DNA of 64,000 nucleotides from Geitlerinema sp. PCC 7407 (GTDB taxonomy: Bacteria > Cyanobacteriota > Cyanobacteriia > PCC-7407): assembly GCF_000317045.1 (NCBI RefSeq), contig NC_019703.1, forward strand, positions 1,414,501-1,478,500. Reading direction: 5' to 3'. Positions 16,685-46,182 of the stretch are shown one piece after another. The stretch's first letter is position 1, and every line of letters begins with the position of its first letter. Position numbers and translations under genes: made by a program. The notes under the pieces are model-generated. The model saw only the letters and a list, made by a program, of their open reading frames with translations, was not told where the DNA came from and ran no database searches.

Positions 16685-17382
16685 GGGGATACTTAGGGCG
16701 TGAAGAAAAGTCTGAGATGTCCCAGTGAGCGTTAAGCAGTCGCTAAAGGCGAGGTTTTAAAGAGAGGTTTTTCAAGAAACCCCGAAAATGTCAAGCAATG
16801 CTGAGTGTACGAGACAGCGGGATGGCCGAAAAATCCTTGGAATGGGGCGAAGGTGCGATCGCCCAGCGCCAAAGCCTCAAAATTAGGGTGATTGGCTCGG
16901 GCTGGGCCAGGACAGGAGCAACCAAAATCCCAGTTCACACTGCCCTGGGCCGCTGGCCTCAGGATAGCAACCGAATCCGCTGGGGTGATCAAGCTTTACT
17001 CTCTCTTATAGCGGATTCGCTGAGAAGACAACCGCAAAGGGGGACGCTTGGGGACTAGAACTTGGTCTCTGCGGGGGGTATTGGTAGGTACGATCCAGCG
17101 AAGAAGACTGACCCGCACTCTATAACTTAGATAGCGAGTTTGGCTAGAAATTTCCAAATGGCTCTTTGGTTCGAGAAGGAAAAAATCTTGGATGGCGATC
17201 GCCCCTGATCGTGATGCTGCCTAGCCTACACGCCTTTTCGGCTGGTAACTGTTGGGGGGCGGCTCTTCGCCGCTCGTTACAAATCGCTATAGAATCTCCC
17301 AGAAAATGCGGAGAAATGGTGCTTCGAGCGATCGCTCAGGGATCCTCCAGCGACCTCTCCCCTTATGGGGCGATCGCTGACC
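16685..17382. other. Intergenic region upstream of topA, left of the IS200/IS605-like element
   Basis: About 700 bp without a credible gene. The topA promoter should lie near its left end. Short frames present on both strands show no conserved features. Several HIP1 sites occur. Confidence 0.5.
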
Positions 17383-17813
17383 GTGACATACTCCTACGCG
17401 GATACTGACGCATACAGCGTAGGCTTCTCAGTGACCCCTGGTAACCCATCGGGCGTATCCTGAGCTTTATTTTGAGTCCACGGAATGCCCTACCGCAGAC
17501 TTTGAACAAGGACCAAAGTATGTTCAACCTCTGTACTGTCAAAGTTTTACGCATCCACAGAAACACGAATTCGCTATGACTGGATGCAACCGCATACTTT
17601 GAGTTGTTGTGGTTCAGATTTCAGGGCGGCGATTAGCTCAAACCCTTGCCCTGACTATATCACCCCTACTTTGTGCCATGAACGATTTGCTCGTTTCCTC
17701 CCCCTTCCCTTCCCGCGCCTGGGGCATAGGTCAGGGGAGCGTCGTCATCTCACTCGCATTCATCTCACGCCAAGCCAAGGATGATGGCGTGGGGCTTCTG
17801 CTGCTTTAGCTAA
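17383..17813 (-). mobile_element. Non-autonomous IS200/IS605-like element, copy A (no transposase); candidate structured RNA
   Basis: About 431 bp, homologous to 30124-30556. On the reverse strand it starts near TTAGCTAAAGCAGCAG, with a subterminal hairpin (17766-17772 with 17785-17791), and ends in a hairpin (CCTACGC 17393-17399 with GCGTAGG 17417-17423) followed by AGTATGTCAC. This arrangement of subterminal hairpins without inverted terminal repeats is that of IS200/IS605 ends. No tnpA or tnpB frame is present. Internal stems 17502-17507/17522-17527 and 17551-17556/17582-17587 are preserved in copy B with different bases. Element boundaries are inferred only from where the two copies stop matching. 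Confidence 0.7.
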
Positions 17814-28791: not shown

Positions 28792-30127
28792 ATGACTTTT
28801 TCCGGAATTATGTGGGCTGCATCCTGCTTGGGATGCCTAGTCTCACTGCATCATCATTCCCTGAAGCCGTCCTACTTTCCTACGCAGCCCCTTCCCCAGA
28901 AGGTGCTTTCGGCCCTCAGTATCCCCTTGCAGCGATCGGGCTCTAGCCTCCACCAGCGAGGCCAGCGGAGCCGCAAACGCCCCCTGTCGGCGATCGCCCC
29001 CCTTTCGCCCATCGCCGCCGCCAGCGACGCTTCGGCTCGCTTGCCCAAGGCCCTCGTGTTCAGGGGCTCCTGGCTGCTCAATGAGGCTTTGCACTCGCCG
29101 CTGCCAGACCTGCCAAAGCTCGCGCTGTGGGCTGCGCCCGCAGCAGCGGCTGAGAAACCTCCGGCCATTGTGCCCGTGGTTTTGGGAGATGCGGCAGTCG
29201 AGCCGACCGTGCCTCGGGGCGTGAGTCACTTGATCCAGACGGTGTTTCGCTGGACGCCCGGTGTAGCCCAGAGCAGTAAGGCGGGCGCTTCTGAGGTGAG
29301 TATTCGGACGCAGTACTTGGCACCGGGCGATCGCCCCTTCACGCCCCTGGGCCAGTGCACGCTGCCAGAGCGCAAAAAATTCTCCATGCCCTTTACCGAA
29401 AACTTGATCGGTGGCCAGCACCGCCGCAAAGAATTTCAGGTGTGGGTACGGGGGTGTCTGGTGGCTACCTTCCCGGAGATGGCCGAAGCCAAGGCGCTGG
29501 GCGACCGGCTGGATCTGTTTTTGCGCAACACAAAGCTGGACGCGGCTCAGCTGGTGCCAGCGCTGGTGAGCGATCGCTATGTCGGCAAGGTGGGCGATCG
29601 CGTTTTGTTTGAAGTGGAGCCCGCTGTGGCCCAGCGTCTGCAAGAAGACGTCGAAGTGTTGCTCATCCAGTGGGTGAACAACCTGCGCATTGCTCTGGGA
29701 GGAACCCCGCTGTCCTTTGTCGAAGCTCAGCAGCATCTCTACGCCCTAGAAGAAACCACCAACAAGATCGAAGGCATCGCATCTTGTGTATGGTCCCTAT
29801 TTTCATGGGCGTTTGACCGCCACCGGGGAAATCTTTGACCAGAGTGAATTAACGGCGGCCCATCCTTCCTTGCCCTTTGATACCTACCTCAAGGTCAAGA
29901 ATCTCAAAAACGGCTATTCGGTGATTGTCCGCATCAACGATCGCGGCCCCTACTTTGAAAATCGCACCCTGGATTTGTCCCGTGAGGCGGCCCGCCGCAT
30001 TGACAGCGAGAAAACGGGTGTTGTGCCCATCGAAGCCGTGATCATGCGCCCCTCCGGTCCGATCCAGGAGGGGCAAGTCATTTCTGGGAACCCAGGCGAT
30101 CGCCGGGTGGCTCTCAACGCGCCGTGA
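28792..30127 (+). pseudogene. rlpA: Septal-ring lytic transglycosylase RlpA-like, interrupted by a +1 frameshift
   Basis: The first frame (28792-29838) and the second (to 30127) together make one RlpA. The first gives a cyanobacterial N-terminal region ending QQHLYALEETTNKIEGIASC; the second continues YGPYFHGRLTATGEIFDQ ... LPFDTYLKVKNLKNGYSVIV ... RINDRGPYFENRTLDLS, the double-psi beta-barrel with the conserved His, Asp-Arg-Gly-Pro and LS residues. The switch falls at 29785-29791: TCT TGT G TAT, where relatives read Ser-Trp-Tyr; one extra T would explain it. No slippery heptamer is seen. RlpA cleaves denuded septal glycan. No convincing signal peptide is visible in the first frame, so the N-terminus may also be damaged. 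The final TGA lies in the first bases of the adjoining mobile element. Confidence 0.8.
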
Positions 30128-30556
30128 CATACTCCTACGCTGATACTGACGTATGCAGCGTAGGCTTCTCAGTGACCCCTGGTATCCCATCGGGCGTTTC
30201 CTGAGCTTTATTGACGATACGGGATGCCCCACCGCACCGGAACAATACAAAGAGTGTTGTTCTCTCCTTTGTACTGCTGGAATTTTACCTGCCCACAGAT
30301 GCGACGACGCATCGTCTGTTTCCAGGCAGAACCCCATATTCCAGGTTGTCAAGGTTCAAGTTTCAGGGCGGTGATTAGCTCAAACCCTTAGCCTGAGTGT
30401 ATCGCACCCGTTTTGTATCATGAGAGGTTTGCTCGTTTCCTCCCTCTCCCCTCCTCGCGCCTGCGGCATAGGTCAGAGGAGTGTCGTTCGCTCGCTCGCA
30501 TTCATCTCAACGCCAAATCAAAGATGATGGCGTGAGGCTTTTGCTGCTTTGGCTAA
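30124..30556 (-). mobile_element. Non-autonomous IS200/IS605-like element, copy B (no transposase); candidate structured RNA
   Basis: About 433 bp, same organisation and orientation as 17383-17813. The terminal hairpin CCTACGC 30134-30140 / GCGTAGG 30158-30164 is next to GTATGTCAC on the reverse strand. The other subterminal hairpin is ACGCCA 30510-30515 / TGGCGT 30528-30533. Internal stems 30240-30245/30257-30262 and 30289-30293/30325-30329 sit where copy A has different but complementary bases. No transposase frame. It lies exactly between rlpA and the Crp-type gene: the rlpA TGA is at its left end and the regulator's TAG falls in the TTAG at its right end. Confidence 0.7.
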
Positions 30557-46089: not shown

Positions 46090-46182
46090 CAAATCGTTCA
46101 TCCCTTTAGAGAAAATCCGTAAACCTAAGTCAGTTTCTCCGTAAGGGACGGAAGTAGGGAATTACCCCGAAGGAACGCGCCT
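46090..46182 (+). ncRNA. Glutamine riboswitch (glnA RNA motif)
   Basis: The conserved parts of the glnA glutamine aptamer are present in order: CGTTCATCC at the 5' side, a GAGAAA.../...TTTCTC arm, GGACGGAAGTAGG, and CCGAAGGAACGCGCC at the 3' side. P1 pairs CGTTC (46095-46099) with GAACG (46173-46177). It lies 39 nt before the DUF4278 start, and a CACCTC segment (46191-46196) could pair with the Shine-Dalgarno GGAGG at 46209-46213, suggesting control of translation. In other cyanobacteria this aptamer turns on gene expression when glutamine is high. Confidence 0.87.

Follow-up and report, generated by a model that had tools for sequence, protein, structure and literature searches.

IStrons combine a structured RNA, a group I intron, with IS605-type transposon ends. 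The guide RNA of ISDra2 TnpB (omega-RNA or reRNA), as resolved by cryo-EM, has a 116-nt scaffold that begins with a helix called stem 1, the loop of which pairs with the nucleotides preceding the guide (PMC10097598). RNAs derived from RAGATH-18 are guides of IS607 TnpB (PMC11061315). Type II MITEs of Anabaena sp. 90 are multi-copy, structured elements of 77-541 bp, reported in the part of the source considered here to be unrelated to IS ends (PMC3542288). They resemble the element described below in copy number, structure and cyanobacterial host, a likeness drawn from description and not from sequence, and the same part of the source proposes no RNA or TnpB link for them (PMC3542288).

A protein-less member of a resident IS200/IS605 family

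The window (the whole stretch of 64,000 nt of Geitlerinema sp. PCC 7407 DNA that was analysed) carries two full-length copies of an IS200/IS605-type element, and alignment of the copies returned the limits given for copy A in the preliminary description:

17383-17813, minus strand: copy A, whole protein-less IS200/IS605-type element (both ends set by an alignment of 18 copies)
30124-30556, minus strand: copy B, full-length like copy A and a member of subfamily B (copy comparison and alignment)
17752-17813, minus strand: left end of copy A, 62 nt, common to tnpA/tnpB elements of the same genome (~80% identity to the autonomous left end)

The genome (4.68 Mb, one contig) contains 18 full-length protein-less copies of ~430 bp, plus several fragments. 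The full-length copies fall into three subfamilies, A (L001-L004, including copy A), B (13 copies, including copy B) and C (L019). They are dispersed and have sharp borders, at which the flanks diverge exactly. Copy A is 431 bp long, with the RNA sense on the minus strand, and runs from TTAG at 17813 to GTATGTCAC at 17383. Across the 18 copies the element starts with TTAG or, in one copy, TTAA, likely the target/TAM tetranucleotide, and ends with TCAC, nearly all copies having GTATGTCAC.

As the preliminary description had stated, copy A encodes neither TnpA nor TnpB; by tblastn the right end resembles TnpB over just ~25 residues of its C-terminal tail, and stop-free frames in the element reach lengths of 77-116 codons at most. 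The observation of a protein-less IS200/IS605-like element with a structured interior is confirmed. Its proposed derivation from a family with autonomous members is also borne out by the same genome, which holds three copies with tnpA and tnpB and about a dozen with tnpB only, all with ends like those of the protein-less element. HVH motifs are visible in the three resident Y1 transposases (PF01797), whose copies have matching ends. One TnpB from this group (L034) can be aligned with ISDra2 TnpB (8bf8) at an E value of 1.8e-43, the D, E and D catalytic residues and the zinc ribbon being in place. The host genome thus has both TnpB and TnpA in intact form.

Similarity between the protein-less element and the tnpA/tnpB copies is limited to positions 1-62 (~80%) and 312-431 (~86%), and the 250-nt middle has no match to tnpA or tnpB on either strand. 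The element is most likely a non-autonomous member of the resident IS200/IS605 family. It shares with the non-autonomous derivatives of this group (MITE/PATE type) the ends of resident tnpA/tnpB copies, a right-end hairpin, a TTAG/TTAA left boundary and a high copy number. A plain MITE is an internal deletion, whereas here the 250-nt insert is unrelated to tnpA and tnpB and contains an RNA core found across cyanobacteria.

The right end resembles a TnpB guide scaffold

The features at the right end are as follows:

17383-17501, minus strand: omega-RNA-like scaffold of copy A, ~119 nt (~86% match to the tnpB 3' coding region and right end)
17475-17501, minus strand: predicted omega-RNA stem 1 of copy A, AGTCTGCGG [TAGGGCATT] CCGTGGACT (pairs in every subfamily with different bases)
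17385-17389, minus strand: AUGUC, predicted pseudoknot partner of the stem 1 loop GGCAU at 17485-17489 (pairing; geometry of the ISDra2 omega-RNA, PMC10097598)
17393-17423, minus strand: right-end hairpin, TnpA recognition palindrome (sequence)
17367-17382, minus strand: candidate 16-nt guide of copy A, consisting of flanking DNA (from the TnpB mechanism, PMC10097598)
30124-30239, minus strand: omega-RNA-like scaffold of copy B, with stem 1 CGGTGCGG/CCGTATCG, loop GGCAT and end ATGTC (sequence and pairing)

The tnpB frame of the resident copies crosses the right end and stops in the terminal hairpin, so that their guide-RNA scaffold overlaps the tnpB gene. The scaffold of copy A neither overlaps nor follows a tnpB reading frame, with similarity confined to the TnpB C-terminal tail, and we class it as omega-RNA-like instead of as a standard omega-RNA because the element has no tnpB gene. 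It shares with the ISDra2 type a scaffold of ~110-119 nt reaching the element border, a 5' stem 1 and a pseudoknot between the loop and the 3' end (PMC10097598), and differs in lying away from a tnpB 3' end and in being preceded by a separate structured domain with its own candidate promoter.

Stem 1 reads TTGGCGG/CCGTCAA in the tnpB copies, AGTCTGCGG/CCGTGGACT in subfamily A, CGGTGCGG/CCGTATCG in B and otherwise in further relatives, nearly all versions being fully paired; it is 8-9 bp long in protein-less copies versus 6-7 bp in most tnpB copies. The GGCAU loop lies 100-111 nt (~108 nt) from the complementary AUGUC near the element end in most copies of the group, and a second class of relatives (class II) carries the identical pentaloop on different stems. 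In L133 an A-U to G-C change has occurred in the pseudoknot, and in L150 a G-U pair is replaced by A-U. In the 18-copy alignment the scaffold terminates exactly at the right border, so the flank would be the guide. Two class II relatives (L132 and L142) give weak matches to RAGATH-18 (Rfam RF03064) at this scaffold, with 23.8 and 23.9 bits far under the gathering score of 44.9, and copies A and B give none.

By these comparisons the right end keeps stem 1 and the pseudoknot of a TnpB omega-RNA, and the conservation of both exceeds the needs of TnpA. As a counterpoint, TnpA requires the right-end palindrome, so part of the similarity between the ends would be expected without any guide function. 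A rival reading is a plain MITE, in which only the terminal palindromes matter, TnpA mobilises the element, and scaffold and inner RNA are passive passengers. Matching ends in resident IS605 copies fit this account, as does a 150-bp derivative in G190 (L157, 1436-1584) that has left and right ends only and lacks the core RNA, indicating that movement does not strictly depend on the inner RNA. Against it, stem 1 pairing has been kept through base changes in the protein-less copies although the coding frame is lost, the core is present in all 18 full-length copies of the Geitlerinema sp. PCC 7407 genome, and that core covaries strongly across genera (see below). We regard the plain MITE as unlikely.

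A covarying RNA core upstream of the scaffold

Inward of the scaffold lie further structured features:

17533-17617, minus strand: conserved RNA core of copy A, with P1 at 17596-17602/17539-17545 and P2 at 17582-17587/17551-17556 (model R1, 87.9 bits, E 1.2e-16; covariation)
30271-30359, minus strand: conserved RNA core of copy B (model R1, 88.9 bits, E 7e-17)
17654-17659, minus strand: TATAGT, a -10-like hexamer that precedes the RNA domain and reads TACACT in copy B (at the position of TATAAT in relatives)
17623-17652, minus strand: 5' hairpin AGGGC...GCCCT, after the -10 box (sequence; a like hairpin occurs in L103 and copy B)
17502-17527, minus strand: hairpin P4, TTGAACA...TGTTCAA, its GAACA/TGTTC core common with copy B (sequence)

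The core spans ~85 nt with the layout GNACCUUGACAAC-P1-UANGGGGUU-P2...P2'-GGUAAAA-P1'. The preliminary description had taken base changes between copies A and B as compensatory and hence as a sign of selection on structure. GCATCC/GGATGC in copy A versus CTGCC/GGCAG in copy B is truly compensatory, and a stem that it had not listed, TCAAAGT/ACTTTGA versus CTGGAAT/ATTCCAG, is so as well. Its other example, TTGAAC/GTTCAA versus GAACAA/TTGTTC, proved weaker and is not truly compensatory, GAACA/TGTTC being present in both copies and only the stem extension differing. Two copies alone prove little, because the change within the genome is essentially one event (A versus B and C); covariation beyond chance is established by the class-wide test and not by the A/B pair, and it is on the class-wide test that the argument for structure holds.

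A pattern scan was followed by a class-wide DNA search and then by covariance model R1. Among 21 sequences, two-sided changes occur in 15 of 17 pairs, amounting to 78 such cells versus 22 in shuffles, and none of 500 shuffles reached 78. In 30 sequences outside model building, pairing reaches 97.6% in P1 and 100% in P2. Two-sided cells number 113, versus 31 in shuffles and no more than 20 in slid controls, values to be read with the facts that this alignment was fitted to R1, which favours pairing, and that relatedness inflates shuffle tests. A third helix, P3, is not general (45.6% paired in the same 30 sequences). Several pair types occur at one position, for example GC, UA, AU and GU at a single P1 pair, which is hard to explain without structural conservation. 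The first covariation set has 17 G-U pairs versus 7 A-C mismatches, an excess that appears mildly to favour the modelled strand.

The covarying internal stems are a separate RNA domain upstream of the omega-RNA-like scaffold, not the scaffold itself. The suggestion that the element is an orphan omega-RNA is upheld for the right end, with its stem 1 and pseudoknot, and does not extend to these stems, leaving the original interpretation partly supported. An Rfam search of the window, the A, B and C copies and the relatives, at gathering scores and at E<=5, found no family for the element, only the sub-threshold RAGATH-18 matches and chance matches. The same search identified a glutamine riboswitch (glnA leader) at 46093-46181 of the window, which also contains three tRNAs.

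In most loci the core is preceded by a -10-like box, commonly at a distance of 42-70 nt, and a strong box is found in 48% versus 6.5% of shuffles. A search for a -35 box upstream of the core gave nothing convincing, so the promoter assignment rests on the -10 box, and a generic promoter scan found no full sigma-70 match in copies A and B. A divergent small ORF shares the upstream region with the core in L104, L105 and L119. In some relatives (G115, G190) such a divergent mini-gene encodes an RHH_1 (CopG-type) domain, scored for L104 and L105 at 28.5 bits against a cut-off of 20.5.

TnpB is reported to trim its RNA to a scaffold of ~106 nt (PMC10278001), from which it follows that the 5' core would fall outside the mature guide. 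Its conservation is then not explained by guiding alone, trimming being expected to remove it. The strong conservation of this core is the most interesting part of the element, and the core may stabilise the RNA, offer a platform for loading or act as a regulator in its own right.

Distribution and proposed mechanism

R1 has matches in 47 of the 390 cyanobacterial genomes, which belong to 36 of 160 genera, and the core is often multi-copy. It is also present on Sphaerospermopsis, Dolichospermum and Gloeocapsopsis plasmids and in Nodularia phages. An IS605-type right end closes most of the intact relatives. R1 found no core in 74 sources surrounding matches to tnpB, tnpA or the right end, and no tnpB gene was found beside the core in ~50 loci when the tnpB proteins of this genome were the queries, a search that a divergent tnpB could escape. 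Links to tnpB copies are seen at the ends: in G190 a tnpB copy (L163) has the same right end as a core-bearing element (74% over 85 nt), and in G177 the tnpB copies have their last ~46 nt in common with a core-bearing element and ~110 nt in common with a further RNA element that is likewise protein-less. The latter (L186, L187 and L188) has a TnpB-like right end without the R1 core and may represent a second type of such RNA. Two 361-bp copies in G265 are 100% identical and have different flanks, indicating recent movement of a relative. In Nodularia phage kac65v151 a full class II element (L219 4001-4400; 119688-120090 of the phage) adjoins an intein-containing ribonucleotide reductase gene, with a transposase-annotated gene and a serine recombinase nearby.

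The pattern scan located the inner domain in Cyanobacteria bacterium RU_5_0 (L098) with 83% identity over 172 nt. Among species genomes scanned for the exact pattern this was the sole true relative, three other matches being due to chance, and exact-pattern scans of viral contigs gave no match. The L098 copy (690-905 of JAAUSF010000011.1) has no transposon ends around its core. TATAAT lies upstream of it, a terminator-like hairpin followed by a T run lies downstream, and the copy is possibly domesticated or truncated. A second RU_5_0 copy (L116) is 100% identical to it over 127 nt but has a right end. The presence of one copy (L098/L101) with a core but without a right end, and the decay of several others, speak against the proposal below.

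We propose, with a probability of about 0.6, that this is a non-autonomous IS605 element which TnpA mobilises in trans, and that the 3' part of its RNA would be transcribed and loaded as a trans-acting TnpB guide. TnpA (Y1 transposase) from complete copies would mobilise the element through the shared ends, a small RNA gene occupying the place of tnpA and tnpB. A promoter just upstream of the core, predicted from the recurring -10 box, would give a minus-strand transcript that passes from the structured 5' domain (P1/P2) into the ~119-nt scaffold with stem 1 and pseudoknot and on into flanking DNA. TnpB from sister copies would then trim and bind the 3' part, use the flank as guide and cut the empty donor or target site beside TTAG, which would favour retention and copying of the protein-less element. 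The weakest step concerns the 5' domain, which most likely takes the place of the tnpB mRNA leader and would stabilise or load the precursor. Even odds attach to the broader claim that these elements form an undescribed and widespread family of stand-alone guide-RNA transposons, present in cyanobacteria as well as on their plasmids and in one or more phages, with a 5' domain found only outside tnpB copies and omega-RNA scaffolds like those of TnpB families in the same genome, acting in trans.

A regulatory RNA or decoy that binds TnpB (or TnpA mRNA) and represses autonomous copies instead of guiding cleavage is somewhat less probable than the plain MITE. RNA parts can inhibit TnpB activity in cis (PMC10278001), the divergent RHH mini-gene of some relatives suggests regulation, and the L098 copy ends in a terminator without a guide; yet the inner domain has no extended complementarity to tnpA or tnpB on either strand compared, and most copies have an intact 3' end that continues into flanking DNA, as expected of a guide. 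An IStron-like element, with a self-splicing group I type intron joined to IS605 ends, would likewise combine a structured RNA with ends of IS605 type, but is very improbable. Neither the A, B and C copies nor the relatives match an Rfam intron at E<=5, and the conserved core, at ~85 nt, falls short of the size of a group I core.

What the covarying stems define is a new RNA domain, distinct from the guide scaffold. If the proposal of a trans-acting guide is true, TnpB guides would come also from RNA-only elements of an older, distinct class, living as parasites of tnpB copies or in cooperation with them, and trans-acting omega-RNAs would be a natural and testable phenomenon. It would also provide new guide scaffolds that carry an additional structured domain, and a function for elements so far left unannotated or labelled as spurious genes in the genomes of cyanobacteria, in plasmids and in a phage.
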